Part shown: positions 31,727-47,833 of the stretch, in pieces
Layout of the letters: every line of letters starts with the position of its first letter
Position numbering within the stretch: position 1 is the stretch's first letter
NCBI GenBank assembly: GCA_000155435.1
Contig: DS990260.1
Location: forward strand, 1,855,831 to 1,919,830
Direction of reading: 5' to 3'
Origin: Clostridiales bacterium 1_7_47FAA
Lineage (GTDB): Bacteria > Bacillota > Clostridia > Lachnospirales > Lachnospiraceae
DNA: 64,000 bases
Position numbers and translations under genes: made by a program
Notes under the pieces: generated by a model
What the model was told of the DNA's origin: nothing
Database searches by the model: none
Seen by the model: the letters and a program-made list of their open reading frames with translations, nothing else

Positions 31727-31823
31727 CCCGGACCATATCATATAACAGCAACAGATATTCGGAATAAAGCAGATTAATCCCCATTCTCCCCGGGTTGGCC
31801 GGAGAAGCATCCATCTACCAGGG

Positions 31824-32114: not shown

Positions 32115-32192
32115 ATGTTACCTTATAAATTTATCGAACACTCCCACCATCACTTCCATCCAAAATACCTATTCTTCAGCTCAAGTTCCAAA

Positions 32193-32906
32193 TCAAACAG
32201 CATAATGATTCATATCACAAAAATCCTGACATTTTAAACTCTCTGATGTAAACTCCATAACAAATGTTTCGTTTGAAAGAAAATCAAATGCCTCTTTTAA
32301 TTTTTTTATATCATCATCCTGATAAATGCCCGGTTTATAGTATGCTAATGTAATGTGAGGCGTCATTTGATAACCTACAGGGTATATCCTTTCTAAACAT
32401 TCATATAAATCCATCAATTTATCGCAGTCCGGATTACTATACGGCTCCAGGCCTAATACAACGCTTGAGTGGACCATGTTAAAAACACAGATGGTCTTTA
32501 GTCTTATAATCCATGATTCTTTACATACATTTTCCATGAATATCTTTGCCTTTTCCCTAATAAGGCAAATCTCCTCATCCACAACATTTTCCGGCCGGCC
32601 ATTGACCAAATCATGAAGTGTCATATGAAATGTATTTTCGTTCAAACGCTCTGCAAACATACCCTGACATTTAGAATATAATATATCCTGCATATATTTT
32701 AATTTTTTCCTTACAATTTTTGTTTTTGCATCATTTAAATCCAGAGAAAATAAAATTGTATTACCGATGTATTTCTTAAACTTCCCCGAAGCATCTACCT
32801 TATCATTTAAACTGCTGTTTGTACAAAAGCACCCATCATGATTCATATAAAGGCTATTGTATTCAAAATCATAGACCCGCTCTCTAAATTGATTCAATGT
32901 TTCCAT
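32193..32906 (-). CDS. 2H phosphoesterase-like protein (RNA ligase / cyclic phosphodiesterase fold)
   Basis: 237 aa. Seen: two H-x-T/S-type motifs, HMT at 94-96 (NTFHMTLHDL) and HIT at 184-186 (MTPHITLAYY), with the spacing of the two-His phosphoesterase superfamily, whose members act on cyclic phosphate or 2'-5' linkages in RNA or nucleotides. The start at 32906 follows GGGGGTGG, 19 bases after the HD-hydrolase stop. Last gene of the long minus-strand run. Exact substrate unknown. Confidence 0.75.
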   Translation of the reverse strand: METLNQFRERVYDFEYNSLYMNHDGCFCTNSSLNDKVDASGKFKKYIGNTILFSLDLNDAKTKIVRKKLKYMQDILYSKCQGMFAERLNENTFHMTLHDLVNGRPENVVDEEICLIREKAKIFMENVCKESWIIRLKTICVFNMVHSSVVLGLEPYSNPDCDKLMDLYECLERIYPVGYQMTPHITLAYYKPGIYQDDDIKKLKEAFDFLSNETFVMEFTSESLKCQDFCDMNHYAV

Positions 32907-32925
32907 CTTACCACCCCCGTAATCC

Positions 32926-33636
32926 TTACCCGGAATCATCCCTAAAAATATGATTCTGTTTTTCCGAATCCATCTTTTCCAGCATCATTCCCATACTGGA
33001 GTTAAGCGCCTCAATATTTCTCTTTAATATTCCAAATACATTGGTAAATTCAGGATAATATTTCTTACAGTACGATGCCATGGGTATTAAAAACAACTGT
33101 GTCTCCCGTAGATATTTACGCATTTTATCATTGGAAAATGTATATAAAGTGCTGCTATTATGCAGACGGTCGCTGAGCTTAATCAATGCCGCTTTCGGGT
33201 TCGCTTCAATCCGTTTAAAATACTTGCCCAGCTCATAATCATCCAATCCCGGTTCCTTGGTTAAAAGCTGGATGATTTCCAGAACCTCTTCTTCCAAATG
33301 GTATTGACGTATAAGTTCCTCGCCGTTAAAAGGTAATTTTTCATGACAGTCTTCAAGTACATCATGAAGCAATGAAGCTGATAACGTAATATCATCATTG
33401 ACCCCATAGCTAATCAATGTGGTACAGACCTTAAGCGGATGACATATGTAAGGGTCCCCATCCTTTCGGTACTGTCCATCATGCAATTTTCTTGCTACAG
33501 GGAGGGATACAAGAACCTGCTGCAGATTCCGGCCGAATGCAAACCCTTTTATAAACATATAGGATTTAATGTACCTGGCAGTATCATTTTCATTGAACTC
33601 GTCGTTCATCACAATATACTCCTTGGTTGTTTCCAT
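32926..33636 (-). CDS. HD-domain hydrolase, SpoT/MESH-like
   Basis: 236 aa. Seen: VARKLHDGQYRKDGDPYICHPL near 47-68 (His66), HDVLED at 91-96 and KLSDRLHN at 143-150, which are the metal and substrate blocks of (p)ppGpp hydrolase-type HD domains. No synthetase, TGS or ACT domain, so it resembles a stand-alone small alarmone hydrolase. The start at 33636 follows AAAGGAGG and lies within the 3' end of the upstream gene. Pairing with a 2H phosphoesterase suggests nucleotide-signal removal; this is inference. Confidence 0.8.
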   Translation of the reverse strand: METTKEYIVMNDEFNENDTARYIKSYMFIKGFAFGRNLQQVLVSLPVARKLHDGQYRKDGDPYICHPLKVCTTLISYGVNDDITLSASLLHDVLEDCHEKLPFNGEELIRQYHLEEEVLEIIQLLTKEPGLDDYELGKYFKRIEANPKAALIKLSDRLHNSSTLYTFSNDKMRKYLRETQLFLIPMASYCKKYYPEFTNVFGILKRNIEALNSSMGMMLEKMDSEKQNHIFRDDSG

Positions 33637-34027
33637 AAAATCCTCCTTTATACCATCCAATCTCATCCACAGTCAAAAACCCATATTTTATAAATACCAA
33701 AGGAGTGCCCTGTCTGAGTTTATCCAATAATCCGGCATCGCCGTTTACGATTTTCTTAAACGCATCCTCATCTGTCACTATTGTCCTTCCTATGTTTATA
33801 ACCCCTGTATATTGGAATTCCGGATTTAAATACTCCAAAAGCGCTAAAAGATATCTTATTTCAACATATCTCCACGTTTTAGTATAAAAACCGATTTTGG
33901 TATAATAATTACCCAAAAATGTCTCCTTGCCGTCCTTCTTCAATTCATCCCGCAATAACTTTCTTAACACAGTAAGACTTTGATATCCGATATAATCCAC
34001 ATCTGTTTCTATTTCCCATTTATCCAT
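33590..34027 (-). CDS. Uncharacterised protein upstream of the HD hydrolase
   Basis: 145 aa, not recognised. Seen: aromatic- and Lys/Asp-rich soluble protein, no membrane segment, no clear motif. The start follows AGGAGG. Its last 47 bases overlap the start of the HD-hydrolase gene, so the two are translationally linked. Part of the minus-strand run with small gaps. Confidence 0.65.
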   Translation of the reverse strand: MDKWEIETDVDYIGYQSLTVLRKLLRDELKKDGKETFLGNYYTKIGFYTKTWRYVEIRYLLALLEYLNPEFQYTGVINIGRTIVTDEDAFKKIVNGDAGLLDKLRQGTPLVFIKYGFLTVDEIGWYKGGFYGNNQGVYCDERRVQ

Positions 34028-34105
34028 ACCCTATAACGCCTCCTGCCCGTTCACATAAGTCCTGTCATTTTACCTTTCCCTCTTTTACATTCCTTCCATT
34101 ACAGT

Positions 34106-36154
34106 TCAACGGCTTGATAATGAACCCTTTCCCTTATCACAATAATACCAGCCGCCATCTGCCTGATAGATAATGTGGATGCCGCAGGGTTTTAAATCGC
34201 TCCGGTAAAACCAGCTCCCATCCTCCAATTGTGATGCATAAGATGATACGGCTTCATGATACCACTCCCCTTCCTCAAACCCGGTTTCCGGATTCCGCGC
34301 CCATATCCCCTTCCCACAGAACAGTCCGTCATCCCAAGTTCCCGCCATCATGGATATATTTTCCGGTGAAGATGTGGTATACCAGGCTCCGCTTCCGCTT
34401 CTCTTCCCATCTTGAAATTCTCCCATATAGAAATATTCCTGAGCCGGCGAGTAGTATTGTCCATATCCCTCCGGTTTCCCGTTATCTACCTCCCCATAAT
34501 AGTAATCGCCATAGTCATACTGAATCACCCTGAGTTTATCAGCTTCCATGATTCCGTCAGGTGACAGGCTTTCCATCTCCCAGCTTCCATTATCGTAAAT
34601 CCAAAGTCCCCCGCGCATGACTCCATTCCTGTACCGCCCCATCCAGAAAGAGCCATCCTCCGCCTTCAGCAGTCCATACCCATCCCTTATGCCGTTTGTG
34701 TGATTACCAAAGAAAAACCGTCCCCCACTCCTTTCGCTTCCAAACCCTTCCATCTGCCCCTGTTCCTGTTTTCCGGCATAATACACACCCCCATCCTCCC
34801 ACGCCTGATAGGTGTATGTTTCCTCAGGAATCAAAACAGGCGGTATATCTGCACTGGCGTAGCTGTCCATCTCAAAGGGGGAATGATAAATCCTCCCAAG
34901 CAGGGCAGGAAGCAATATAAGAATTGTCAGAAACGTATAACCCTTTTTCCAGCGCAACCTGTGTGGCTTTATACTGCAGGACTCCGTTCTGCCGTCTTCT
35001 TTCATCTCTCCTAACCCATCCAGGCTGTATAATATGGACAGCAGCGAAAACACCTGAACACCATATCCTAATAGGGGGAAATAATTGCCCATTCCCACAC
35101 CGGCCTGTACCAGAAACAGCTCATTCAGTGTACTGGACACGAACATCATGATAAGTTCCGCCCGGATATACCATGCAATCCTCTTTAGCCTTCCATCCCG
35201 GTAAGGAATACGACCGGTAAAGAACATTACACCTGCAAAAAGGATTAAAAATACAAGCAGGGCAGCTTTTCCATATTCAGCATTCAGGCAGGATAATGGA
35301 TTTTTTTTCCACGTAAGCCATACTTCCCCCTCCATCAAGTCATGACCCAACCGGTTAAATCCAGGTTCCATATACCCAGACCAGTTTGCCTTAACAGCCT
35401 CCAACCGGTAGTCAAGCCAGTTTACATCCCTTAGACTTCGTTCTGTATCAAACAGGTGTACTCCCAGACTATATAAAATCACACGGATTCTTGGACTTTT
35501 ATAAATCATCATACCCAGTCCAGCCAGGTTCATTGCCGCCATAGTTCCCGCTGCCAGAACTTTACGTCCGGTTCCTTCCAGCTTGTATATATATTCCCTG
35601 AAAAATACCAGACAGGAAAAACTGCCCAGAAGTATCACCTCTGTCATCATCCAGTCAACATCTTTCCATTCCGGGATGACCATGATGTCTTCCAATGCCC
35701 AAATGCCTAAGATAGTAAGCAGGGTATAAAAGACACTTGCGGTAAAAATATTGGACAGCCTGTCTTTATCCAGTCCAGATTCTGAAATTTTCACGGCCGC
35801 CAATGCCCATATGGGCCAAAAAAGCGCCAGTGCATACTTGATATACAAAACCGTCCATTCCAGCATGATATGCGGGGCTGTTCCTCTCAGACTCCAGCCT
35901 CTTCCAGCCACCATCAAAACAATTACTGCGGCTGCCTGAATAACACATTTCTTCCATTTTCCTGTTTTATGATTTTTAAGGCCGGATACCAGAATCCTGC
36001 CCGCCAGCATACTGCAGGCTGCCGCCCAAACATAGACAGGCAATTCCCGGGCGCCTTCCTTTACATCATAACGCAGCAGTGCTCCTGCATACAGTACTAT
36101 CATGATGGCGGCACACAGGCGGCCCGCCTGAAGTGATTTATCTGTCCTTTCCAT
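34106..36154 (-). CDS. Polytopic membrane protein with C-terminal MORN repeats; SEDS-like membrane part possible
   Basis: 682 aa. Residues about 1-400 hold roughly ten spans; about 430-680 hold MORN-type repeats (YYAGKQEQGQMEGFG, FFFGNHTNGIRDGYG, YYYGEVDNGKPEGYG, FYMGEFQDGKRSGSG). The last part of the membrane domain, with EYGKAALLVFLILFAGVMFF and then GNYFPLLGYGVQVFSLL, is arranged like the C-terminal region of FtsW/RodA/SpoVE proteins, but the similarity is weak. MORN repeats in eukaryotes bind lipids; here they would be after the last span. Lies between the metallophosphoesterase and the HD-hydrolase group. Confidence 0.75.
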   Translation of the reverse strand: MERTDKSLQAGRLCAAIMIVLYAGALLRYDVKEGARELPVYVWAAACSMLAGRILVSGLKNHKTGKWKKCVIQAAAVIVLMVAGRGWSLRGTAPHIMLEWTVLYIKYALALFWPIWALAAVKISESGLDKDRLSNIFTASVFYTLLTILGIWALEDIMVIPEWKDVDWMMTEVILLGSFSCLVFFREYIYKLEGTGRKVLAAGTMAAMNLAGLGMMIYKSPRIRVILYSLGVHLFDTERSLRDVNWLDYRLEAVKANWSGYMEPGFNRLGHDLMEGEVWLTWKKNPLSCLNAEYGKAALLVFLILFAGVMFFTGRIPYRDGRLKRIAWYIRAELIMMFVSSTLNELFLVQAGVGMGNYFPLLGYGVQVFSLLSILYSLDGLGEMKEDGRTESCSIKPHRLRWKKGYTFLTILILLPALLGRIYHSPFEMDSYASADIPPVLIPEETYTYQAWEDGGVYYAGKQEQGQMEGFGSERSGGRFFFGNHTNGIRDGYGLLKAEDGSFWMGRYRNGVMRGGLWIYDNGSWEMESLSPDGIMEADKLRVIQYDYGDYYYGEVDNGKPEGYGQYYSPAQEYFYMGEFQDGKRSGSGAWYTTSSPENISMMAGTWDDGLFCGKGIWARNPETGFEEGEWYHEAVSSYASQLEDGSWFYRSDLKPCGIHIIYQADGGWYYCDKGKGSLSSR

Positions 36155-36199
36155 ATCCCACCCCCACTCCTAAACATAAACTAAAAATCCCCATGCGTT

Positions 36200-37360
36200 T
36201 TATGGATCCATTACAGGTATATTATAATATCCACGGGAAATCCGCTTGCCGGAATGCAGATATCTCATTATGATTTCCACTGAATCCCCGTATATCCTCA
36301 ATTCCGTATAGCACCCGTCCCTCCACTCAGACGGCAGAACCGCCTCTGTTGATTTTAAATCCACCGGGCATATGCTTCCATCATTGATATAGAGGTTTTC
36401 CCTCATGGAATCGTACTCCACACATCCAGATGGAATATCCGGTGACAGATGGGTATGACCTGAGATAAAAATAATATTCCTTTGCTGGTCCACAATTTCC
36501 TGCAATGCCGTGTCCTGTGCCAGATATGGTGATTTCCCTTCAGGGCTTCTCTGCGGGTTATGTGCCAAAAGAGGGGCATGGCACAGGATGATATGCTGTC
36601 TGGCCGGACTATCTGTAAGATATTGATTAAGCCATTGAAGCTGCGCTCCCTTCTCGGGAAAATAAAATATTTTCCGTGCATACAGAGGATTTAAACCAAT
36701 CAGGTCCACTCCCGGACCAAGCATTGCTGCAAAGGCACCACTGCCACTATCCATAAAAGCGTACCGTTCCCGTATCCTTCCATGAAGCCACTGTTCAAAG
36801 CACCGGTAATCCTTCTTTTGGCATTCCGGGATATCATGATTCCCTGCAACTGCAAAAATCGGTTTTGCCGGTATGGTTTCTTCAATGACGCTGGCCAGCC
36901 TGTCATACTGCAATGACTCACAATTATTAACCAGGTCCCCCGCCATTAAAACCAGATCCATATCTTTCATGCGGTTCAGTGCTGTACGGATCCTGCCAGG
37001 CTTATCTGTCATGTGTAAATCGCTCATAAGGCCAATCCGCATTTCCGGGGTATGATTGCAATGGTGTGAAGATGTCATGTGGGATTCAGGTATCTCCCAG
37101 TATGCTTCTTTTACCTGGGAAAAATCCTCTGGTATTGTCTTTACACAGATCCTGGACGCCTCTTTGGGAATGGACCGGCCGCCTGTATATGAGAATCCGC
37201 CTTTGCCATCTGGATTAAGGGGCAGATACGCAAATGGGGAATACTGTTTCAATTCCCCATCTGCATCTGCCCAGGACAGCCGGGCCATAAGGCAGCCCTT
37301 TTCCTTGACATCATACTGCCCATCTGCCAAATTCCTTTTTACAAAATTTACGTTCAGCAT
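36200..37360 (-). CDS. Calcineurin-like metallophosphoesterase with N-terminal extension
   Basis: 386 aa. Seen: metal-site blocks SDLHM near 113-117, GDLVNN, GNHDIP, ILCHAP and GHTHLSPD, the full set for a two-metal phosphoesterase. The first 90 residues form an extra domain (MLNVNFVKRNLADGQYDV) of unknown role. No signal peptide. The ATG at 37360 follows GGGAG. It sits 28 bases after the small unknown gene upstream. Could act on proteins, lipids or cyclic nucleotides. Confidence 0.88.
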   Translation of the reverse strand: MLNVNFVKRNLADGQYDVKEKGCLMARLSWADADGELKQYSPFAYLPLNPDGKGGFSYTGGRSIPKEASRICVKTIPEDFSQVKEAYWEIPESHMTSSHHCNHTPEMRIGLMSDLHMTDKPGRIRTALNRMKDMDLVLMAGDLVNNCESLQYDRLASVIEETIPAKPIFAVAGNHDIPECQKKDYRCFEQWLHGRIRERYAFMDSGSGAFAAMLGPGVDLIGLNPLYARKIFYFPEKGAQLQWLNQYLTDSPARQHIILCHAPLLAHNPQRSPEGKSPYLAQDTALQEIVDQQRNIIFISGHTHLSPDIPSGCVEYDSMRENLYINDGSICPVDLKSTEAVLPSEWRDGCYTELRIYGDSVEIIMRYLHSGKRISRGYYNIPVMDP

Positions 37361-37387
37361 GGCTGCTCCCAATTTTCTTTGATATTA

Positions 37388-37843
37388 TTATGATTCAATA
37401 TCTTCCTGCTTTCCTACAACTGCCAAATCGCTCTTATCCTCAGCTGTCTCCAGCTTATCTTTATTAAGCTCCCATCCATTGCAATTCATTATTTTTTCAA
37501 TATACCCTGCATCCTCATCTCTTAAAATCAAGGTGTCATGTCCTGTAGAAAGTGCCTTTTTTGCTGCCTGAGGCTCTCTTGCAACCCAGTCTACTGTCAA
37601 AAAGGCTGTAACCGGGTCAAGGGAGCGTTTGTCACATAATGCCTTAACATTGATACCATACAACGCTTCCTCAGGAAACTTTGCAGTGTAAAACCATTTC
37701 AGGAACGCTTCCAGAATACATGAATCGATTTTTCTTAATGCAGATATTGTCCGTTTAGCCCTTGTCTCAGAATATCCAAGATTATCAGTTAAATAGTTCA
37801 GTAGCCTTTTGTATGAAATCCTCATAATAATCCGTTCAAACAT
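37388..37843 (-). CDS. Uncharacterised small protein
   Basis: 151 aa, not recognised. Seen: helical N terminus (SYKRLLNYLTDNLGYSETRAKRTISALRK), acidic C terminus ending DIES, no membrane segment. Its start overlaps the stop of the upstream metallopeptidase gene by one base (TAATG), with AAAGGAG before it. The tight coupling suggests joint function with that peptidase. Confidence 0.75.
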   Translation of the reverse strand: MFERIIMRISYKRLLNYLTDNLGYSETRAKRTISALRKIDSCILEAFLKWFYTAKFPEEALYGINVKALCDKRSLDPVTAFLTVDWVAREPQAAKKALSTGHDTLILRDEDAGYIEKIMNCNGWELNKDKLETAEDKSDLAVVGKQEDIES

Positions 37844-38532
37844 TATGATTCATCTCCTTTCAGCATCTGCATTACCATGGCTGCATATTCTCTTGCATCC
37901 CTCTCACACAGTTGTTTATTATATAGTTCAGGATTTTCCGCGAATGACACATACACGGACGGATGAAGACCAACAGCCATCTGCCGGCAGTACCCGTCTG
38001 AACCATTGTTGTACGTTCTGTCCTCAATGAAACAATATTGCATAGCGTGTCGGAACTCATGGATTACAGTATCTAAATACTCATAAATATATTCCGGTTT
38101 ATTTGAAAGCAGGAAACGGTAATCTATCCAGATTTTCTTTTTACTGTTACAGTAATATCCACAGATACAGTCCTCCGACTCCCCCATCTCCAACCCCAGA
38201 TTGAGCGAAAATCTGGTGCACAAACGTCTATGTAACTCATTCGCTGTGTTTATCCTGGTTTCAGCATCCATTCCAGTAAGGGATCTAACCGGATTTTTTC
38301 CCAGTAAATCCCATATCTCCTGAACAGCAAGTATTGACCGCGCTTTGTCTATATCAGTAAACTGCACTTCCGTTTCGCAAGATAATGCCTCGATGGAATC
38401 ATACGGAAAAATTCCCCCTGTCCCAATTCCATCTTCCAAATCCCCATTAAAAATCTCATCATTTCCCAGAAGATCCAAGGTCACGATTGTAATTGCCGTT
38501 ACGGCAATCATGCCTATAATCCAACCCAGCAT
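37843..38532 (-). CDS. Membrane-anchored zincin-like metallopeptidase
   Basis: 229 aa. Seen: an N-terminal hydrophobic segment (MLGWIIGMIAVTAITIVTLDLL), then HEFRH at 158-162, an HExxH zinc and catalytic motif in the context DTVIHEFRHAMQY, and CERDAREYA near the C terminus, where the third zinc ligand of such peptidases often lies. The ribosome site is AAAGGGGGAT. Whether the catalytic part faces in or out is unclear. It belongs to the run with the Hsp70-like and AAA+ proteins. Confidence 0.78.
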   Translation of the reverse strand: MLGWIIGMIAVTAITIVTLDLLGNDEIFNGDLEDGIGTGGIFPYDSIEALSCETEVQFTDIDKARSILAVQEIWDLLGKNPVRSLTGMDAETRINTANELHRRLCTRFSLNLGLEMGESEDCICGYYCNSKKKIWIDYRFLLSNKPEYIYEYLDTVIHEFRHAMQYCFIEDRTYNNGSDGYCRQMAVGLHPSVYVSFAENPELYNKQLCERDAREYAAMVMQMLKGDES

Positions 38533-38662
38533 TTACGATATCCCCCTTTACATCTTTTATGCTTTTACCAATGACCGATGGTTTTTCTCCGGGCATTTTA
38601 TTGAGGGTCTCTTCAATGTCGCAGATAAGATGTATGATTCTTTTATCCATGATTTCACTCAT
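38459..38662 (-). CDS. Possible small ORF upstream of the metallopeptidase gene
   Basis: 67 aa, helical at first (MDKRIIHLICDIEETLNKM), then degrading into sequence that overlaps the metallopeptidase start in another frame. Ribosome site is poorly spaced (AGAGGA directly before the first ATG). May be a leader, a small gene or nothing. The remainder of 38662-38789 shows no feature. Confidence 0.3.
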   Translation of the reverse strand: MSEIMDKRIIHLICDIEETLNKMPGEKPSVIGKSIKDVKGDIVNAGLDYRHDCRNGNYNRDLGSSGK

Positions 38663-38789
38663 TCCTCTCTGTTATCAGTACACAAACGTGCAGTACAGAC
38701 TAAAATCAGATGAACACGGGGCATGTTGTTGAGTCATAGAATCACAACACACCCCTTATAAGCATGTTTCCTACATAAAGAATAAATAT

Positions 38790-39968
38790 TTATGCAAAAA
38801 CAGTCGGAACCTCAACCGCTTCCCTCTCACTCTCTGACTCTGCCTCCTGCATTGGGTCCGTATACATCATTTCATCTATCCCGGAAATTGTATCTTCTTC
38901 CGTATGACCGCTAAAGAAGCTGCCGATATATCCCATAAGCTTTTTAATGCCGGAAATAAGCATCTTACCAGCAAAGCGGACACACCTTGCCCCAAAACAT
39001 ACTACATCCTTTGTGACTACAGCCAGACTGCCGCCCGCATCCATTAAAGGCTCTGCAAGCACTTCAGAGGCGGCGTATGCAAAGGTAATCCCACCGAGAA
39101 ATGCGAATATTCCTGTCCCAATAACAGATGCTGCATATAAACCAACTGATACAGAGGCATACACGGCAACAGCTGCACCAAGCACAATTCCGACAGCACG
39201 GATGATTTTTGAGGCTGTAGACTCTTCTATCTCCCCGTTCCCAACAGCCCCGGCAACACTCAAAGCGTCCACACCTGCACATACGCTGTATGTAATGTCT
39301 TTAAGAGACGCATCCTCCGGCATTATGCCTTTAAGGTACCCATCATCCCCGCTTTCCAAATACGCCTTCATCGTAAGCACAGCCTTGAACATGGATGAAT
39401 CCTCTCCGTATCTGACTACAGCCAGTTCTATATTCTCTGTCGTATCTGCTGCTTTCTCAGCATATGCATTCAACGTAGCGGCAAGAAATCCGTTATTTCC
39501 AAGTGCATTTTTTAATTCTTCTTTCAGCTTTGCTTCCAGCTCCTCCGTGGCCTCTTCTTCTGTAAAAACCTTATGTGAATGTTCATTTATATAAGCTTCT
39601 ACGGCAGACATCCGTCCTTCTGATTCACAAATGCCTGCTGCAATCAGTCCAACACGCACCTTGTAAAGAGTATTGCATCGTTCAGCGCAGGAATCTTTTC
39701 CCTTCAGTATTTTCTGTACCTTCTCATCATACCATGCATCCTGATTTTCCATAGCCTGTCGTACTTCCTGGTCATATTCGCCTACAAGTCCGATTACCTT
39801 ATCAGCCATCACATAACCGATATTCTCAGTCTTGTCCGAATAGGCTCCACAATACATGTCCTTCAGTATAGTGCGTACATCACTGCCTTCCCTCTCCTGC
39901 TCAATCAGATTCCTACAGTCTGCCCTCAGCTGATCCATCTTATCCTGCCCCAAAATAAATGTTGTCAT
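38790..39968 (-). CDS. Uncharacterised protein with central membrane region
   Basis: 392 aa, not recognised. Residues 1-250 are soluble and helical; about 258-312 form two or more spans (VGIVLGAAVAVYASVSVGLY, FAFLGGITFAYAASEVL). The C terminus is acidic and could be cytoplasmic. Start follows AAAAGGAGG. Lies 95 bases after the AAA+ ATPase gene. A membrane partner for the ATPase is possible but not shown. Confidence 0.75.
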   Translation of the reverse strand: MTTFILGQDKMDQLRADCRNLIEQEREGSDVRTILKDMYCGAYSDKTENIGYVMADKVIGLVGEYDQEVRQAMENQDAWYDEKVQKILKGKDSCAERCNTLYKVRVGLIAAGICESEGRMSAVEAYINEHSHKVFTEEEATEELEAKLKEELKNALGNNGFLAATLNAYAEKAADTTENIELAVVRYGEDSSMFKAVLTMKAYLESGDDGYLKGIMPEDASLKDITYSVCAGVDALSVAGAVGNGEIEESTASKIIRAVGIVLGAAVAVYASVSVGLYAASVIGTGIFAFLGGITFAYAASEVLAEPLMDAGGSLAVVTKDVVCFGARCVRFAGKMLISGIKKLMGYIGSFFSGHTEEDTISGIDEMMYTDPMQEAESESEREAVEVPTVFA

Positions 39969-40062
39969 TGTAAATCCTCCTTTTAGTGATAATCGTTTCT
40001 TCTGTGTATGATACCATTTTATATTACTATAACGCTAAATCTTTCAAAACCCTGGAAATGTT

Positions 40063-41991
40063 TCATTTTGTCAGTTCTGCAATGGCATTTTCTTCAAGTC
40101 TTGCTGCCATAAATACCATCTTCTCACGGATTGTCCGGTAAAGCACCCTGTCATAGTCTGATTTAAAATCACTTTTCTCTGAAATAGAAATGTCAATCCC
40201 CTTACCTGTATAGTTAACAGCATAATCTTTTGGTGAAAACAGGCAGTCATCTGAGGTAGGCTTAAACCCCAGCCGCATCATCCGTAAATAGCATATGGCT
40301 ATACTGTCCAGGTTCTCATTTCCATCGCCATACATGATTGTGGAATCCGACACACGTTTTAACGCATTAATCCAGTCCGTATGGCTAATTGCGCCTGTTC
40401 TCTGCGTAAATTGCCGCAATGCCATATTTACCAGCTTGGTAATATCCGCTCCCGTAATGAACCGTCCCTTTTTCTTCCCGTTTTCCTCATATAATAAATG
40501 GTCCACCGCAAGACCTAATTTATCATCATCAAAACACTGTTTCATGAATAATTCGTCATGTTTATTAAATTCGAGAACAATGCTTTCTGCCTTTTCCATC
40601 CTTTTCTTAAATATATCAATGCACTCCCCCCGGGTGGGCATATACAGGGCGAAATGTGAGTCAAAACGGCCGCTTCTGAAAAACTCTTTTGGGATACCGG
40701 ACAGGCTATTGGCCGTAGCAAAAATATATACCGGTTTTATACAATCCTGCATCCAGCTCAGCAGAATTCCAAACATCCGCTTTGTAACACCACTGTTATC
40801 CTCACCTTTACCGCCACTTCCACTAAAGCCTTTTTCAATCTCATCTACGTATAAAATGCAGGGCGACATGGCTTCTGCAAGACGAAGGGCAAGATGCATG
40901 TTATGCTCCGACTCCCCTACAATCCCCCCCATCAAACGTCCGATGTCCATCTTGATTACCGGCAGTTCCAGCGATTTTGCCAGAAGATTGACTGCCGCGG
41001 ATTTTCCACACCCGGGAACCCCACACATGAGGATACCCTTATGTCCTGTTGCACCGGTCCTGCGGAATATACGGTCTGCCTGCAGGATACTTTCTTTATT
41101 TGTGTCCAGCCATTGATGAAATGCCCGCATCCCGCCTAAATTTTCCTTTTCATCCACCTTCTGCAATTCCAAAAGGCCAATACGTTTTACATTCTGTTCT
41201 TTTAATGTTGCCAGGACCTTTTGAACCTCTTGTTTATTTTCAATCATCGGCCTTCCGGTAAGTAAATCCCTTGGCAGATTCAAAAGATAGTCAACCGTAT
41301 CTTCTACCTGAATCAGGGAATTCCCCAGAAACCAGGATACATATGATTCAATGGTGTCATCTGACAGCACACAGTTGGATTGGGAAATCTTATTCTGGAT
41401 TATCGCAGCAATTTCTTCGCCCTGCGGATATGGTTCCTCGACTATATAGCAATATGTCTTCAACCACGATGGCAGCTCTAATTGGTCACCGTACAGAAGT
41501 ACAGCTGAGGACCGGATTGCACAGCTGTCGTCCGTTTCCTGCAGATAGCGGTCTACAAAAGGCAGAAGGGCATCATAAGCGGACACATCATTGTATGGAG
41601 AAGCATTTTTCCTGACATGGACAGCCAGCAAAGAAGGGAGCAGGTAATTAGACTTTTTATTAATGGTAAACCTTCCGTAACACCCGTCATCATCGCTTCC
41701 ACCGCAGATTCTCTTTGGCAATTCCTTTAATGAACAGCAATCCATATTGATAATATTATAATCGATTAAAGCGCTGTGATAGATGTCTGAATCGTCACAA
41801 TATACGTTCGAATAAGGGACGATTGTATCCATGGGATACTTTGTCATTCGGACAACGACTTCGTCTGAGTTTAATACCCTTCTTACTATCTCCAATTCAG
41901 TGGTTTGCAGATAAATAACCGGCTTGCGTAAAAGCATACCGTTTCGTATTTGGTTTGTGATTGTATTTATTACAGAATTTTTCGCATTCAC
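40063..41991 (-). CDS. AAA+ ATPase, Ycf46-like
   Basis: 642 aa with the GTG start chosen here, preceded by AAAGG; a TTG seven codons upstream is possible. Seen: N-terminal domain with RKPVIYLQTTELEIVRRVL, Walker A GVPGCGKS at 324-331, GRLMGGIVGESE at 351-362, Walker B ILYVDEIEKGFSGSGG from 379, sensor-1 ATANS at 425-429 and Arg finger region FFRSGRFD. These match the Ycf46 group of AAA+ proteins, whose role is not well defined. Sits after an unknown gene and before a membrane protein in the novel run. Confidence 0.85.
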   Translation of the reverse strand: MNAKNSVINTITNQIRNGMLLRKPVIYLQTTELEIVRRVLNSDEVVVRMTKYPMDTIVPYSNVYCDDSDIYHSALIDYNIINMDCCSLKELPKRICGGSDDDGCYGRFTINKKSNYLLPSLLAVHVRKNASPYNDVSAYDALLPFVDRYLQETDDSCAIRSSAVLLYGDQLELPSWLKTYCYIVEEPYPQGEEIAAIIQNKISQSNCVLSDDTIESYVSWFLGNSLIQVEDTVDYLLNLPRDLLTGRPMIENKQEVQKVLATLKEQNVKRIGLLELQKVDEKENLGGMRAFHQWLDTNKESILQADRIFRRTGATGHKGILMCGVPGCGKSAAVNLLAKSLELPVIKMDIGRLMGGIVGESEHNMHLALRLAEAMSPCILYVDEIEKGFSGSGGKGEDNSGVTKRMFGILLSWMQDCIKPVYIFATANSLSGIPKEFFRSGRFDSHFALYMPTRGECIDIFKKRMEKAESIVLEFNKHDELFMKQCFDDDKLGLAVDHLLYEENGKKKGRFITGADITKLVNMALRQFTQRTGAISHTDWINALKRVSDSTIMYGDGNENLDSIAICYLRMMRLGFKPTSDDCLFSPKDYAVNYTGKGIDISISEKSDFKSDYDRVLYRTIREKMVFMAARLEENAIAELTK

Positions 41992-42005
41992 GTATTTATC
42001 CTTTC

Positions 42006-43073
42006 TCAACAAAACTTTCTTCCATCCCAGATTTTCCCATCATTTCGGGTCACAATGACTGTGTTTCCTTCCACACGGACTTCTGAAATAACCGCAATCT
42101 CTTCCGGTACCTTTTGTCCACCATTCAAATCATCATAATTTCCGTAGTTAATATGCCCGTCTTTTACATATATATATTGTGGATTATCTCTATTCGCATT
42201 AACTGCAAACGAAGATGCATCAATTGGAATTGCAGAATACCTTTTACCGTTAATATAAATCCCGTCCAGCTTCCGGGTAATCGTGTTTTTTCCGTTCGTG
42301 ATACTATCAGGAAGGATACGGATAACCGTTCCTTCCAGAACAAGGCAATACATCCGTTCGCCCTGCAAAAGACTACGGTGCTCAGATTTTCCGGCCGCAG
42401 TATTGGCAAACTCCAATTTCACGTCTGCGTCTGCATGAATCACACATGTCCGAAGCCGCTTCTCATAAGATGGGGACCGGGATGGATTAAAGGGAAACCT
42501 ATATGTACCATTCAGAGCATGGAGCGTAATTGAAGCGCACGGATCATCCAAACAAAAATCGATTATCATATCATGATTGTCCGCATTTGCGTCAAAAGGC
42601 CTTTTCATAAACTTATAAGCTTCCTTTAAATGATTCTCATTGATATGTTCCAGACAGCCTTCATTTTTGTCCGCCAACAGGACACCGGCAATTACCAGCA
42701 TGATAATCCTGCTGTCACTGCCTGGTAATCCGGAGGCGTACTTATTATAAATAGAAGCCGCTGTTTCCGCCTGTCTTTCATACTCAGGCATATCTTCATA
42801 TTGATTGATTGTTTTAAACAGCTTCCTGCTAAGGTTACCGTTTATTGACCAATAGTCATCAACGCCCGTCATCTGGAATGGCAGATCATCATCCAGCATC
42901 ATCAAAACCACATCAAGATGGTGCAGATTGATACTGCCGCTCCATCGAAGATGCCCAATTGCAAAACGTGAAAATGCTTCACAATTACGAAGCATGTCCA
43001 GCACATCAAAATGTTTATAAAAATCCGTGATATTAAGAATCGGTACCGACTGCATATGAAGGATTTCCGACAT
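42006..43073 (-). CDS. Uncharacterised protein of the Hsp70/AAA cluster
   Basis: 355 aa, not recognised. The N-terminal half is helical (ILNITDFYKHFDVLDMLRNCEAFSRF); the C-terminal part is beta-rich, with short strands such as YIYVKDGHINYG and VEGNTVIVTRNDGKIWDG. No membrane segment. The ATG at 43073 follows GTGGGGTG. It lies 15 bases before the AAA+ start and 25 after the paralogue gene, so it belongs in the same transcript. Confidence 0.72.
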   Translation of the reverse strand: MSEILHMQSVPILNITDFYKHFDVLDMLRNCEAFSRFAIGHLRWSGSINLHHLDVVLMMLDDDLPFQMTGVDDYWSINGNLSRKLFKTINQYEDMPEYERQAETAASIYNKYASGLPGSDSRIIMLVIAGVLLADKNEGCLEHINENHLKEAYKFMKRPFDANADNHDMIIDFCLDDPCASITLHALNGTYRFPFNPSRSPSYEKRLRTCVIHADADVKLEFANTAAGKSEHRSLLQGERMYCLVLEGTVIRILPDSITNGKNTITRKLDGIYINGKRYSAIPIDASSFAVNANRDNPQYIYVKDGHINYGNYDDLNGGQKVPEEIAVISEVRVEGNTVIVTRNDGKIWDGRKFC

Positions 43074-43097
43074 GTCTAACACCCCACTTTCCGCATA

Positions 43098-43910
43098 TCA
43101 TAGTCTCCATTCCTGTTTTGAGAACACATTCGACTCAATACTGCTGCAGATTCTTTGTGCTTCCCTTTTATAGTTTTCAAGCTGCTGCCCATCCTCCTTC
43201 CGGACAGGCCGTAAACTCTTTCCCATATCTTCAACAACATCAGATACAGCAGCCAGAAGCTGTGGGTACTTCATATCATACCCTAATAACGCCAATTCAC
43301 TTTCATCGTATACAACCTCAGTCTCCTCATATCTGTCATGCCTCACCGTAGTGGTGTTCCCGGATGGGCATAAACCTGCAATCAAATCATGAATGGCAGC
43401 ATACAGTTTAAAACGCATCATCCAGTTATCAAATGCCCTTAAATATGACAGGATACCACTGTGTTCTGATGCTGGTACTATATTTTCCGGCACTTCCCGT
43501 TCCCTTATGTATACTCTTTTGTGTACAGCAGGAACATAATCCCTCTTTATCTGCTCTGCCATTGAAAGGCTTTCATGGAGTTTATCCATGTCAGCGTTCA
43601 ACTGCATCCAAATCGTATTGTACAACAAAATACAAATTACATATGTCCCTTCGTCTTCGTCATATTCAAATGCATTAACAGATGGTTTCCTTACCGCCTG
43701 ACAAAAATTCTGTAATACATCGTGAAAACCTCCGCGTTTTGAGAATGCCTTCCATATGACACCATCCTTTTCCCGATTCGAGACACCAGCTGCTATACGC
43801 GCATCATACGTATCATTTCTTATTATCTCTTTCGACATATCCGCATACTCCTTCACCATTGCTTCAATCATTACTCCGGTTACATTATCCATTGGTTTAT
43901 TGGTCGTCAT
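43098..43910 (-). CDS. Coiled-coil protein, paralogue of the protein at 46081-47016
   Basis: 270 aa. Residues 50-103 carry a conserved block (VIWKAFSKRGGFHDVL, then KPSVNAFEYDEDEGTY, ILLYNT) that matches residues 71-125 of the protein encoded on the other side of the Hsp70-like gene. The rest is helical and unrecognised. Overlaps the Hsp70-like gene by 14 bases; its ribosome site is weak, which fits translational coupling. Confidence 0.78.
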   Translation of the reverse strand: MTTNKPMDNVTGVMIEAMVKEYADMSKEIIRNDTYDARIAAGVSNREKDGVIWKAFSKRGGFHDVLQNFCQAVRKPSVNAFEYDEDEGTYVICILLYNTIWMQLNADMDKLHESLSMAEQIKRDYVPAVHKRVYIREREVPENIVPASEHSGILSYLRAFDNWMMRFKLYAAIHDLIAGLCPSGNTTTVRHDRYEETEVVYDESELALLGYDMKYPQLLAAVSDVVEDMGKSLRPVRKEDGQQLENYKREAQRICSSIESNVFSKQEWRL

Positions 43911-46047
43911 CTGAGATTAGCAGGATTCTGTCAAACGCCTTATTAGCCGTTGCCCGGAGAACAGCATAATGATTTTCAAAATCCTCCCCATATACGTTCT
44001 TTTTTGTGAACGAATCACGCAAGGCACTTTTTACAGGGTTATAAATCTCATTAAGTTTTTCGGTACGTTTCTTTTCCATCTTATTTACAGCAGAAGAAAC
44101 AGAAGCAAGGGAAACTGGCGTCTTTTCATATTTTTTAAAGAATTCAACGATGGCACTACCTGCAAACATACCTACGACTGTTACAAAAATGGGTCCGATT
44201 CCAGGCACAATAGCTGCAATAAAAGCCAATATAACAAAAACCACTGCACTCAATATGTATCCCACAATAGCTCCGATAAGATTAGCATCAGCAGCTATGT
44301 CAGGCATAGTGATATTTGGGATGGACACCCGGCTGCTGATTGCTTTTACATCATCCTTGCTGATTCTAACCATATCGCTCATAGCTGTGTCTGCATATAA
44401 CTCAGACGAAGCATTGTTGATGACCCTGACAATTTCAGAAGCATCTGAATCAGACCAGGCTTTCATACTTTTTTGGATTTCCTGACTTTTATTTCTTTTA
44501 AGGGAATCATTCACTGCGCGGTCAATCTTACTGGTAATTGTACCAACATTTGTAAAATCTGTTGCACGGTCAATGTGGTCCCATAATCCCGATGCGTTCC
44601 GCGTCATGGACTTTAATGCGGAAACCGCATCATCATAGGCCTTACCAGAAAGATTTTCAGTAATATCGCCCATCATTTTGTCTGTATGCTGTCTGCACCT
44701 TTTTATGATAAGGTCTATCGCATCGCCGCGTATACCTGGTGCCTTGACTTCGTTGTATGCAATTGTTGCAAGTCCCTTAACAACACTATGCGATGAAGCA
44801 TCCGATGGAGTAACCCAACTGTCGTTAAACACTTTTTCACACAATTCAACCGTGAACGGCATGTTGCTGCCGCCTCCGGTAACGACAATCGCTTTAACAA
44901 ATATGTTTTCGCCTTCCAGTGTCTGCTTGACATCATCCAGAAATCGCCTGCAATTCTGTTTCCATGTGCCGTGGCTTACTATCTCGCCATTCTTTTTGGC
45001 ATCAAACTCATACCCATCCACAGCATACTGCATCATCGCTTCCGTAACATCATATTTTATAGCAATTTCAACAGATTCCCCATCATCAAAATCCAGATTC
45101 CCATCTTCATCAATCACAGGAAGAGGCACAATCTTTATTGCAGTATTTCCATTCAGTTTTCCGTCATAGTAATCCTCCTTATCTTCCCTCAATTGAAAAA
45201 CTGCATGATTACAATTGCTTCTCGCCACCAAAAGCCTGTTTTTGTCATACATTTTTGCCTGCTTTGCAAGAGTAGCCTGTGTCTTTTCACTCTGAATGAT
45301 GTAATCAAGCATGGCATGCTCTATCTTTGCAGCGCCAAGCTCCCAGCTGAGATTGATTATTTTCCTACCGGGAAGAATATATGTGGCGTCAGCCGTAGAA
45401 GAACCGTAGTCCACCACCAAAATGCCTTTTTGGATATCCAGCTTGTCGCGGAGCGAATCAATTTCAAGAAGTGAAAAAACAGCAGCACGTGATTCTTCCG
45501 TGACAATGACATTCCGAATACCAGTGGCCTCAGAAATAAGCGTCTCATACTGTTTACGCATGGATTCGCCTTTCCAGATAACAGACGCCGGGCATCCAAC
45601 AACCAGTAATACTTCGTCTTTATTCCAGTGCGCATTCCCATTGGCATCAGAGGTAATAACAGACCTTATAACCCTGCGGTTTGAACTGTTTTGCAGAATT
45701 GCTTCCGACACGCCTTTGATGAAATCAGACATATGCTGCCTGTTTTCCATATTCAAGCTGGATTTACTGTCCCAGTCCCTTGGGGACCTTTTAAAGCTCA
45801 CAACAAAGTTCTTTAATTTTGCAGCATCCGACCCAATAATAATTGTTCCGTCATCCTCCTTTGCCACGGCTGATTTTTCAACCTGCTGGTCGCGGCTTTT
45901 ATGTATATATAATGGCTCAAGCTTACTGACGCGGTCTGTAACGGATTTGGCAAAGGCAACCGAATCCCCGTCACCAATATCCCAGCCCATGACCAATTTG
46001 ATTCCAGTGTACATAGGTTGTATTTTCGTATTATTCTGCGTATTCAT
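43897..46047 (-). CDS. Membrane-anchored Hsp70/actin-fold ATPase
   Basis: 716 aa. Seen: phosphate-1 MGWDIGDGDS at 20-29, phosphate-2 ILVVDYGSSTAD at 209-220, an Hsp70-like ELGAAKIEHAMLDYI at 236-250 and adenosine block AIVVTGGGSNMPF at 386-398, so an actin/Hsp70 nucleotide fold. In place of the usual substrate domain there is a long helical region, then a hydrophobic stretch near 585-640 (GYILSAVVFVILAFIAAIVPG) and a charged tail. It is thus probably tethered to the membrane. Start follows AAGGAGG. Flanked by two related coiled-coil genes. Confidence 0.85.
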   Translation of the reverse strand: MNTQNNTKIQPMYTGIKLVMGWDIGDGDSVAFAKSVTDRVSKLEPLYIHKSRDQQVEKSAVAKEDDGTIIIGSDAAKLKNFVVSFKRSPRDWDSKSSLNMENRQHMSDFIKGVSEAILQNSSNRRVIRSVITSDANGNAHWNKDEVLLVVGCPASVIWKGESMRKQYETLISEATGIRNVIVTEESRAAVFSLLEIDSLRDKLDIQKGILVVDYGSSTADATYILPGRKIINLSWELGAAKIEHAMLDYIIQSEKTQATLAKQAKMYDKNRLLVARSNCNHAVFQLREDKEDYYDGKLNGNTAIKIVPLPVIDEDGNLDFDDGESVEIAIKYDVTEAMMQYAVDGYEFDAKKNGEIVSHGTWKQNCRRFLDDVKQTLEGENIFVKAIVVTGGGSNMPFTVELCEKVFNDSWVTPSDASSHSVVKGLATIAYNEVKAPGIRGDAIDLIIKRCRQHTDKMMGDITENLSGKAYDDAVSALKSMTRNASGLWDHIDRATDFTNVGTITSKIDRAVNDSLKRNKSQEIQKSMKAWSDSDASEIVRVINNASSELYADTAMSDMVRISKDDVKAISSRVSIPNITMPDIAADANLIGAIVGYILSAVVFVILAFIAAIVPGIGPIFVTVVGMFAGSAIVEFFKKYEKTPVSLASVSSAVNKMEKKRTEKLNEIYNPVKSALRDSFTKKNVYGEDFENHYAVLRATANKAFDRILLISDDDQ

Positions 46048-46080
46048 AACAGCAGTCCTCCTTGGTATCGTTTGGCAAAA

Positions 46081-47016
46081 TTATAACGGATAACTATTTT
46101 TAATATGTGATATCTGCCTGCAGAATGCGTGCGCCATCTCCATATATCCCTCAAGCTCCCCTTCCTGGGCTGGCGATATGGTAAGTGCGTGAAATACATT
46201 GTCATCATTCTGCACTTCGCATAGCTGTTTAAGCATCTCGTATAGTAAAGTATACTTTGGTGTATATACTTTTTGAAAATCACACCTTTCCCTGAATTCT
46301 TTAAACCGTTTGTTATAAGCTTCAACTTTACTGTTGTATTGCTCTTTCTGCATTAATCGGGACTTCAGCTGATTTCCTAACGACTTCAGTTCCTCCTCTT
46401 TTTTTTCCTTCGGACCTCTGCTAATTGCCTGAAGCAAATCGAGGGTGGGAACCCTGCTGTGTCTTTTCTGAATTTCATTGTATTGTTTCCGGAACTGATT
46501 GGGTTCATCAACAAGACTATCGTATTGTTTTTGTAAACCATCATATAGTTTTTGCAGTTCCCCCATTTCTCTACAAAGCCCCTGTTTTCCTGATTCATGA
46601 GCGGATCTGTATCCATCACACATTTCGTCATATAAGGATTCCATCCTCTTTATGTGTGTGTTATAAAAAGCGATAAAGATAATAAAATGTCCTTCTTCTT
46701 CATCAAAACTAAATGCATTAGCGGATGGATGCTCTATGATATTTTCAATGTCTGTCAACATATCATACAGACCGCCATGTTTTGAATAAGCCTTCCAGAT
46801 TATCCTGTCCCTGGATTGTTCCTCCTCTTTTCTGATGATATTCAAAAATTCAGATTCATCATCACATACCGGCCCGAGAGGTTTTCTAAGCTCCATGCGT
46901 TCATTTTCCAAGATAGAATCTTTTATATTTTCCTGTAGCTCCTGTAAACTCCGGTTCTTTTGAACAGATACTTCTCTTCTTGCATTAGCCTGGGATTTTT
47001 TAGCATTTCCAGTCAT
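46081..47016 (-). CDS. Coiled-coil protein, first of two paralogues
   Basis: 311 aa. Residues 71-125 share the block RIIWKAYSKHGGLYDML... HPSANAFSFDEEEGHF... FYNT with the protein at 43098-43910. Residues about 125-260 are long heptad-like helices (EMGELQKLYDGLQKQYDSLV). No membrane segment. The ATG at 47016 follows GGAGGGTGG; an ATG four codons earlier is also possible. May be an adaptor for the Hsp70-like ATPase 34 bases downstream. Confidence 0.78.
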   Translation of the reverse strand: MTGNAKKSQANARREVSVQKNRSLQELQENIKDSILENERMELRKPLGPVCDDESEFLNIIRKEEEQSRDRIIWKAYSKHGGLYDMLTDIENIIEHPSANAFSFDEEEGHFIIFIAFYNTHIKRMESLYDEMCDGYRSAHESGKQGLCREMGELQKLYDGLQKQYDSLVDEPNQFRKQYNEIQKRHSRVPTLDLLQAISRGPKEKKEEELKSLGNQLKSRLMQKEQYNSKVEAYNKRFKEFRERCDFQKVYTPKYTLLYEMLKQLCEVQNDDNVFHALTISPAQEGELEGYMEMAHAFCRQISHIKNSYPL

Positions 47017-47108
47017 TCCACCCTCCATTTCCTACTATTTTAAGTATGCGTCTATGATATAACACTATACAGACATTTTTTTTAAGCTTTTTAAAATCTT
47101 CAAATACA

Positions 47109-47645
47109 TTACCTGTCACTTTTAAAGTAATTCCTGACCTCTTTTGGATATTGACTTGAATAATATTCTAAAATATCATACATATCAAAGGTGTTATTAT
47201 GTCCACTTAGAATAGCAGCTTTTACCAGTCTGTCCATACGCGAATCCGCCAGATAGAATCCAGCTAATTTTAGGATTTTTTCTGACTCGTCCCAATTGCA
47301 ACTAAGACCGGCAATGATTTTCAATATGGTTTCTTTGCTGAATTTCCCGTATGTAAAATTAGTCCAGGTTGCTGCACTGATACAGCAGCTCTCATAAAAA
47401 CATACCGTATCCACATTACCGGAGCGACGTTTAGGACCTCGTTTTTCCAGTAGTTCCTTGACATAGTCCTGCAATTGAAGATTACTGTCTTTTTCCAATT
47501 TATCATAAATTCTCTGAAAATCTTTTTCAAAAGGAGGCACTGAGGATGCTGCTTTCAAGTTAATCCTGCAATCCCCCCGCCGAAGCTGTTCTTCTACATC
47601 CACTATCAAATTACATAGCTCCATATAATCTTTTTTCTTATTCAT
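47109..47645 (-). CDS. Helix-turn-helix protein, first gene of the novel cluster
   Basis: 178 aa. Residues about 82-135 (FYESCCISAATWTNFTYGKFSKETILKIIAGLSCNWDESEKILKLAGF) fit the XRE-like pattern in which a Lys-rich recognition turn is followed by an 'SKET' helix and an 'LAG' helix. The N terminus is helical and unrecognised. Start follows AAAGGAG. It leads the minus-strand run and sits near a perfect palindrome, so it may be its regulator. DNA binding is inference. Confidence 0.72.
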   Translation of the reverse strand: MNKKKDYMELCNLIVDVEEQLRRGDCRINLKAASSVPPFEKDFQRIYDKLEKDSNLQLQDYVKELLEKRGPKRRSGNVDTVCFYESCCISAATWTNFTYGKFSKETILKIIAGLSCNWDESEKILKLAGFYLADSRMDRLVKAAILSGHNNTFDMYDILEYYSSQYPKEVRNYFKSDR

Positions 47646-47713
47646 ACCTTTTGCTCCTTTATTTCAATGTATTTTCCTGTTTATAATCATATCACACCGT
47701 ATTTTCCTAATGT

Positions 47714-47730
47714 TCCCAAAATTTTTGGGA
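47714..47730. promoter_or_regulatory. Perfect 17-bp palindrome, candidate operator
   Basis: TCCCAAAA-T-TTTTGGGA, with 8-base arms and one central base. Lies 69 bases upstream of the HTH gene and upstream of the divergent kinase gene. Suitable for a dimeric repressor controlling the minus-strand cluster. Confidence 0.5.
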
Positions 47731-47772
47731 GAATCTCCTTTGACAGCACTTCCATTTCAAACACTTGTCCGT

Positions 47773-47778
47773 TATAAT
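47773..47778 (+). promoter_or_regulatory. Possible -10 element of the kinase gene
   Basis: TATAAT about 56 bases before the kinase start. No strong -35 at the right distance (TTCCAT at 17 bases is weak), so this may depend on an activator. Confidence 0.3.
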
Positions 47779-47833
47779 ATTATGGTATGGTATCTACATA
47801 TATTAAGAAATCTCACAGGTGGAGGGACTATTT

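Follow-up and report, generated by a model that had tools for sequence, protein, structure and literature searches.

A rare, recurring gene cassette with an Hsp70-type ATPase, a Cdc48-like AAA+ ATPase and predicted membrane proteins in a Lachnospiraceae genome

The window analysed here is a stretch of 64,000 nucleotides (nt) from Clostridiales bacterium 1_7_47FAA (Lachnospiraceae; contig DS990260.1, positions 1,855,831 to 1,919,830), and our subject is a run of minus-strand genes, read from position 47645 to 32193, that includes genes for an Hsp70-type ATPase (g03) and an AAA+ ATPase (g06). All genes of the run share one direction, with overlaps or gaps mostly below 100 bp, as an original prediction made from the letters of the window had described; its count of fifteen genes becomes 14 (g01-g14) for open reading frames (ORFs) of at least 140 amino acids (aa). 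The largest gap measures 257 bp and lies between g07 and g08, where the sole further candidate considered was a doubtful 67-aa ORF (38459-38662) overlapping g08. Promoter-like sites occur at chance level (40 observed, 45.1 expected, standard deviation 6.3) and terminator-like sites number 18 where 11.0 are expected (standard deviation 3.5), neither count being decisive for transcription units; Rfam gave no match at 30000-50000. Table 1 lists the features.

Table 1. Features of the minus-strand run, in window coordinates
Feature	Position	Strand	Basis
g01, 178 aa, candidate helix-turn-helix (HTH)-type regulator, first cassette gene	47109..47645	-	blastp and profile matches to relatives
g02, 315 aa, coiled-coil-like, paralogue of g04	46081..47028	-	23% identity to g04
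g03, 716 aa, Hsp70/actin-type ATPase, C-terminal hydrophobic segment at residues 584-638	43897..46047	-	profiles, hydropathy
g04, 270 aa, coiled-coil-like, paralogue of g02	43098..43910	-	alignment with g02
g05, 358 aa, conserved core protein, sensor candidate	42006..43082	-	blastp to relatives
g06, 649 aa, classical AAA+ ATPase (Ycf46/Cdc48-like)	40063..42012	-	PF00004 3.8e-23
g07, 392 aa, helical, long hydrophobic region at residues 251-305, effector candidate	38790..39968	-	hhalign, hydropathy
g08, 229 aa, HExxH metallopeptidase candidate, N-terminal hydrophobic helix	37843..38532	-	HEFRH motif
g09, 151 aa, partner of g08	37388..37843	-	directly 3' of g08 in the window, L065 and L077
g10, 390 aa, calcineurin-like metallophosphoesterase, last cassette gene	36200..37372	-	Pfam 6.1e-16
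Cassette, 11.55 kb, missing from congener G160 (contig C19)	36117..47668	.	blastn blocks in L035
g11, 682 aa, membrane protein, MORN-like C-terminus (below cut-off), flank	34106..36154	-	77% nucleotide identity at the G160 locus
g12, g13 (HD_4 hydrolase), g14 (2H phosphoesterase, below cut-off), separate flank	32193..34027	-	Pfam

Comparison with a congener, genome G160, indicates that the run is two evolutionary units with a border between g10 and g11. On one G160 contig (L035), two blocks of the window lie only ~245 bp apart by blastn: positions 47669-49651, at 85% identity, comprise a histidine kinase and part of a regulator and reach the contig end, and positions 34127-36116, at 77% identity, contain the MORN gene g11. 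Because these flanking blocks nearly touch, the interval 36117-47668 with g01-g10 is missing in G160, which puts the metallophosphoesterase g10 on the core side and g11, g12 and the HD protein g13 on the flank side. The original prediction had set a core at 37388-47645 apart from a phosphoesterase/MORN/HD/2H part; that division survives, with the border shifted to ~36117 and the metallophosphoesterase moved to the core. The G160 locus is itself rearranged, with a 73-bp match to the g12/HD border after the MORN gene and the g12-HD pair at another place (L036), so from this pair of genomes alone the cassette could also have been lost in G160. Its absence from all 16 other genomes of the genus favours gain in the window lineage: g10 had no match in any of them at E 1e-10, and the AAA query from g06 matched the AAA part only, at no more than 39 bits. 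We found no tRNA in the window, no integrase or phage structural family on g01-g10 in Pfam or PHROG scans and no convincing direct repeat at the cassette ends (35800-48200 searched); an imperfect 19-nt repeat family, with copies near both ends (36056 and 47454) and two inside, was judged to be chance. At its other place in G160 (L036:9856-15052), the g12-HD pair has different neighbours, among them an M48 peptidase gene and several proteins with no assignment.

Homologues of the core genes, whose co-occurrence in other genomes the original prediction had proposed to count, do recur together. Of the 397 family genomes, 14 gave a match to a two-row Hsp70 profile; three of these (the window genome, G105 and G652) have the cluster and ten a two-gene unit described below; the family match L074 sits at a contig end, is unreadable and stays outside the counts. 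In a genome scan that used the window Hsp70 as its sole query, 51 stretches were examined and none was confirmed. A three-row Hsp70 profile, applied to one genome per species across 84,980 species, yielded eight loci from 93 stretches, an undercount, given the reliance of the scan on two short peptide patterns. Six of these eight hold clusters (L075, L076, L077, L078, L081 and L082); L079 is the G652 contig again and is not counted separately, and in L080, from a Nostocales metagenome-assembled genome (MAG), a similar Hsp70 adjoins a protein of 353 aa, and there is no cluster. The core set is thus known from nine loci: the window, L022 (G105), L065 (G652), L075-L078, L081 and L082, with L075 and L076 being close kin. 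Record labels assign the eight further loci to Lachnospiraceae, Oscillospiraceae and one Synergistaceae MAG, that is, to two phyla.

The Hsp70-type ATPase and the AAA+ protein are present in all nine loci (the latter split over two frames in L081), and their genes adjoin in eight; in the window they are separated by g04 and g05. A g05-like protein is likewise present in 9/9, in three linked sets: the window with L075-L078 (blastp window-L078 4.3e-7, L077-L078 1.6e-20, L075-L077 1.2e-10), L022 with L081 and L082 (L022-L081 3.8e-64), and L065, which joins L082 (blastp 7.7e-5) and, by profile, the window type (probability 45, E 2.2e-4); these E-values come from very small comparisons. Relatives of g07 occur in eight loci, the L075 stretch ending before the g07 position, and g01-type HTH proteins in seven, with an unrelated small protein in that place in L065 and none seen in L078. 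A coiled-coil-like protein takes the same position in 8/9, a correspondence of position and appearance, cross-subgroup homology being undetectable even by profile for g02 and g04. The pair g08-g09 is found in the window, L065 and L077 (3/9, the L075 stretch ending early), directly after the AAA gene in L065 and L077 and after g07 in the window; this HExxH module is, to all appearances, optional. Pairwise distance matrices correlate at r 0.94 for Hsp70-AAA, 0.97 for Hsp70-g05 and 0.94 for AAA-g05 (8 loci each) and at 0.80-0.82 with g07 (7 loci), with permutation p of 0 to 0.0165 in 2000 shuffles and L081 left out, values that are inflated by the close pairs L075/L076 and L022/L082 and come without a species-tree test. 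Co-occurrence beyond close kin, in nine loci and two phyla, makes a single co-functional gene set a well-supported prediction. We found no description of it in the open-access literature among the matches listed, and the accessible text of PMC7824862 and PMC11237479 holds nothing specific to it; the core set remains, as originally claimed, without a nameable counterpart.

Several of these loci have features of their own. In L077 (15270-17168; Lachnospiraceae C49_72), a second, diverged Hsp70-type gene follows g09, and the locus has two HTH genes. In L076 (13825-18248), a radical SAM/SPASM gene stands directly after g07. The same stretch encodes an unassigned protein of 291 aa and a fragment of 85 aa that is 28% identical to g10, which might connect the metallophosphoesterase with a peptide-modifying cluster. 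Upstream of the L081 cluster (1-5088) is another gene set, with an 880-aa protein matching the L022 AAA in two parts.

Pfam does not name the Hsp70-type fold from the window g03 alone; it appears with profiles, the cluster-only profile reaching DnaK at 1.8e-10 and the profile that includes the two-gene units reaching BiP/DnaK in the Protein Data Bank (PDB) at 1.5e-15. At a threshold of E 0.1, Pfam HSP70 recognises six of the ten proteins in the Hsp70 alignment, and the phosphate and adenosine motifs are conserved there, so that g03 carries an Hsp70-type nucleotide-binding domain; together with its hydrophobic segment, this bears out the Hsp70/actin-fold ATPase with membrane segment that had been predicted. 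We found no canonical Hsp70 substrate-binding domain on g03: the best stretches among the 60 PDB rows listed end at or before profile position 441, and a tail-only profile of the window-type subgroup gave no Hsp70 match in PDB (the tails of L022, L065, L081 and L082 were outside that test). The AAA+ protein g06 (PF00004, 3.8e-23) has conserved Walker A, Walker B and arginine regions, which identify it as a classical AAA+ ATPase. Its relatives in eight loci share its N- and C-terminal parts, the nearest PDB entry to the family profile is Cdc48 (3.9e-53), and PADLOC matches its AAA part to the IetA AAA (4.3e-13). The label 'Ycf46-like' is taken over from the original prediction; the library matches name CDC48, IteA/IetA and unnamed phage families. 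Proteins of the Ycf46 type would share the AAA core of g06; ordinary AAA matches of this kind, most of them in shorter frames, cover mainly that part, whereas g06 has ends common to its cluster relatives.

For g01, g02, g04, g05, g07 and g09, library scans (Pfam, NCBIfam, PADLOC and PHROG) returned no usable family, and for g01 no match at all. Blastp connects g01 to proteins of L075, L076 and L077 (E 9e-11 to 3e-6) and a profile to the L022-type HTH proteins (probability 79, E 1.6e-5), making it a candidate HTH protein by its relatives and the look of its sequence; the HTH assignment of the original prediction thus holds by kinship, with no library family behind it. We take g01 to resemble HTH proteins frequent in stress clusters of Firmicutes. 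The coiled-coil character of g02 and g04 is likewise judged from the look of the sequence, and the paralogy also predicted for them is borne out by their alignment; g02 has weak PADLOC matches to PbeC (7.8e-4) and DruC1 (0.01). The C-terminal look of the coiled-coil-like proteins in L022-type loci raised the idea of a GrpE-like protein, which we rejected: hhalign to the GrpE of the genus gave a probability of at most 0.3 with no subgroup above 5, in a comparison that had no positive control, and GrpE was absent among the 25 Pfam families listed of 28.

The conserved protein g05 has no known family and no useful match in a PDB profile search; blastp links it to L078 (4.3e-7), L076 (4.9e-6) and L075 (6.8e-4), and its AlphaFold-type model (predicted local distance difference test score, pLDDT, 48) was too poor and was not used. 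Homology of g07 extends across all subgroups (hhalign probability 97-98, E 5e-10 to 2e-15) and, more weakly, to g07b, a second copy in L022-type loci (probability 28-51). No fold match was found for g07 (AlphaFold mean pLDDT 61; best E 0.55 in PDB, where a profile search gave nothing useful, and 0.085 in the viral library), and one of 12 relatives weakly matches SLATT_4, a two-transmembrane effector family (E 0.0038). The predicted peptidase motif is present as HEFRH in g08 and as HExxH in 3/3 homologues, g08 included; DUF3920 matches g08 below the Pfam cut-off (1.5e-4), and a PDB profile search gave no match. Homologues of g09 occur in L065 (2.9e-12) and L077 (1.9e-12). Pfam also recognises the predicted metallophosphoesterase g10 and the predicted HD hydrolase g13 (HD_4, 5.8e-11), while the MORN repeat of g11 (E 0.043) and the 2H/LigT phosphoesterase of g14 (6.4e-4) surface only below its cut-off.

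Hydropathy, on which all our statements about membrane segments are based, would tie the set to the membrane in every locus. A long hydrophobic region is present in 7/7 g07 proteins tested, and all three g08 homologues have an N-terminal hydrophobic segment. The C-terminal segment of g03 (30-55 residues) is shared by the window, L075, L076, L077 and L078; the Hsp70 proteins of L065, L022, L082 and L081, and the second one of L077, are without it. An N-terminal hydrophobic helix is found on the coiled-coil-like partner in L065, L022, L081, L082 and L077, and not in the window, L075 or L076. L077 has both, and in 9/9 loci a membrane segment is present on at least one of the two proteins, ATPase or partner. 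Attachment of the system to the membrane is thus a supported prediction, and the movement of the segment between ATPase and partner hints that both form one complex.

The cluster is rare, being present in 3/397 family genomes and 1/17 genus genomes. Relatives of its Hsp70 are more often found in a two-gene unit, an Hsp70-type ATPase beside a membrane protein of ~300 aa, in 10/397 family genomes (L020, L021 and L066-L073). Unlike the cassette, these units lack a full-length AAA, g05 and g07, and the partner has no profile match at probability 20 or above to cassette proteins. Nine of the ten stretches are without a match to the g06 AAA; L066 has one AAA-part match ~3 kb away, in a frame that we take to be FtsH-like. 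The class sample gave 10 other AAA matches in 393 genomes and the phylum sample 11 in 398 (thresholds 1e-30 and 1e-45); most of the alignment falls on the AAA part, and the frames measure 420-577 aa except in G1118, where the frame has 845 aa (profile 127-537). Because they are mostly AAA-part matches to other ATPases, we did not count them as members. Two pattern-limited scans of viral contigs returned no relative of g03.

Parts of this arrangement are known from described systems. Similar in kind are the GAP1-N2 GTPase-HSP70-GrpE conflict systems, which, according to Kaur et al. (2020, PMC7159879), consist of TRAFAC GTPases with GAP1, GrpE, DnaJ or FNIII parts; the cassette is similarly multi-gene and membrane-associated, with an Hsp70 ATPase coupled to another nucleoside triphosphatase (NTPase) and with optional parts, but its second NTPase is a Cdc48-like AAA, and profiles detect no GTPase or GAP1 family in g01-g10 (Pfam) or g01-g09 (NCBIfam). 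The same source proposes the AAA+ ring of MoxR-vWA ternary conflict systems as a switch over variable effectors, whereas the AAA here is classical PF00004 and g01-g10 have no vWA match in Pfam. Type III-A CoCoNuTs (PMC11090510) likewise combine an Hsp70-like ATPase (CnuD), a CDC48-like (SpoVK-like) AAA and coiled coils in one operon; they are defined by McrB and McrC, and neither the McrB GTPase, McrC DUF2357 nor a recognised nuclease was matched here by Pfam or PADLOC profiles. A further difference is the membrane segment, borne here by the Hsp70-like protein or by its partner. The cassette would work like NTPase-gated conflict systems but is, as far as profiles tell, not a member of them, their defining parts not being found.

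We propose a single membrane-tethered system with two ATPases, made up of g01-g09 and joined locally by g10; it was probably acquired by horizontal transfer and most likely serves a conflict or envelope-stress response, a reading to which we give about an even chance of being right. The regulator g01 would keep the operon low. Anchored to the membrane through its tail, or in other loci through its coiled-coil-like partner, the Hsp70-type g03 would build a scaffold together with the coiled-coil-like proteins and g05, the sensor candidate. On sensing a trigger, g05 would alter the ATP state of g03; the AAA+ ring of g06 would then remodel the complex and free or unfold g07, whose hydrophobic region could act on the cytoplasmic membrane to cause leakage, depolarisation or growth arrest. 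The membrane-anchored HExxH peptidase candidate g08, with g09, may provide an optional output or reset step, and g10 would be a local extra enzyme. We infer the regulator, sensor and effector roles, the action of the ring and any link to phage or stress, and the role in stress, defence or envelope that the original prediction gave the core is an inference of the same standing.

A number of results weigh against this proposal. In the analyses made, nothing linked any member to a phage, to an established defence gene or to a phenotype; PADLOC reported no whole known defence system; and no nuclease, NADase or other recognised toxin was matched. The effector role of g07 is a guess because of the missing fold match, and kinship of the coiled-coil-like proteins with GrpE was sought and not found. 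The window and L022 types of g05 have no direct link (probability 3, E 0.013), the L078 stretch is without HTH and coiled-coil-like genes, suggesting that the full machine is not always needed, and the distance correlations are inflated as described.

The same genes could serve quality control of membrane proteins or the envelope, with the Hsp70-type and Cdc48-like ATPases extracting damaged membrane proteins and g08 degrading them in an FtsH-like manner, and with no conflict role. The AAA protein is indeed nearest to Cdc48 and proteasome-activating ATPases, an Hsp70-type ATPase is present and a membrane-anchored peptidase candidate lies near the AAA in three of nine loci; but so rare and patchy a distribution is unlike that of housekeeping quality control, the other six loci showed no peptidase (one of them, L075, in a stretch that ends early), and g03 shows no substrate-binding domain, leaving this explanation unlikely, if worth keeping in view. 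Cargo or a remnant of a prophage or phage satellite is suggested by distant phage relatives of the AAA (phrog_8638, 6.6e-57; 97 phage records, including a Streptococcus satellite phage). None of those 97 records covers 80% of the AAA, however, and neither the pattern-limited viral scans for g03 nor the search for integrase and structural families on g01-g10 brought phage genes to light, so a phage origin seems very improbable. Least probable of the explanations considered is a chance neighbourhood of common families in one direction: the flank genes g11-g13 do have a history other than the core's, but the core stays together across nine loci and two phyla in compatible gene order, and the ten readable two-gene units without this AAA nearby (nine with none, L066 as above) argue that the Hsp70-AAA pairing is not a by-product of the search.

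A more radical alternative comes from the tail of g03, on which PADLOC reports LeoBC at 7.6e-7. In PMC4159319, on the LeoABC bacterial dynamins, LeoB and LeoC are described as one split dynamin-like protein; the g03 tail weakly resembles the LeoBC trunk and paddle, whereas no dynamin GTPase head was found, the head of g03 being of Hsp70/actin type. Under this alternative, such a head would replace the GTPase and drive a dynamin-like trunk and paddle for membrane remodelling, and the AAA ring would disassemble the polymer as Vps4 does for ESCRT-III. LeoBC matches three of the ten Hsp70-alignment members and, when tails are isolated, three of five (1.2e-7 for g03, which also matches LeoB at 6.9e-7; 3.1e-8; 3.8e-6), all three among the four cluster tails; L078 and the two-gene unit L021 give no match. 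Reversing the tails abolished LeoBC (0/5, g03 included) but produced other families (GajB 4e-4, Cas1e 0.01). In profile alignment with five LeoBC-like GTPases of relatives, all of them bearing a P-loop, the tail reaches a local probability of 30 (E 5.5e-4) and, in collinear global alignment, 52 (E 2.1e-5), but its reversal still reaches 11 and 12 (E 2.8e-3 and 5.6e-4), so that part of the score is due to composition, which lowered our estimate for this reading. Plain hmmsearch of the tail against dynamins scored near zero, with the best score from the reversed profile, and a PDB search with the tail profile found no dynamin. The hydrophobic segment does lie where the paddle would be, and Dynamin-like_hel_bact appears in one of ten members (E 0.082), yet the ATPases of L065, L022, L081 and L082 have no such segment. 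With profile-profile controls that discriminate poorly, the LeoBC likeness is weakly indicated and a lead only, and we regard membrane remodelling of this type as doubtful. Equally a long shot is the corresponding new kind of machine, in which a Cdc48-class ring would regulate or dismantle an Hsp70/actin-type head on a dynamin-like membrane tail, with the second membrane protein as effector; if true, the cassette would stand beside the dynamins as their ATP-driven counterpart, used in immunity or stress at the membrane. LeoBC-like dynamin GTPases of 700 aa are encoded in two family genomes (L108 and L109), and in both another frame that matches LeoBC lies immediately downstream.

Elsewhere in the window, positions 51192-52028 encode a protein of 278 aa that combines a LytTR domain with a DUF4440-like part falling just short of the Pfam cut-off, and beside the minus-strand run lies a plus-strand run (26437-31726) with an AraC-type regulator, an ABC transporter ATPase and ABC_transp_aux/DUF4340 proteins.

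Should the proposed membrane-tethered, two-ATPase response be right, the cassette would represent an undescribed multi-protein system, thinly spread in Clostridia and beyond, in which a chaperone-type and an unfoldase-type ATPase are dedicated to one membrane task, and the idea of NTPase-gated conflict systems would extend to an Hsp70-Cdc48 pairing. The gene set also supplies a testable context for seven protein groups without a usable family: g01, g02/g04, g05, g07, g08, g09 and the tail of g03.

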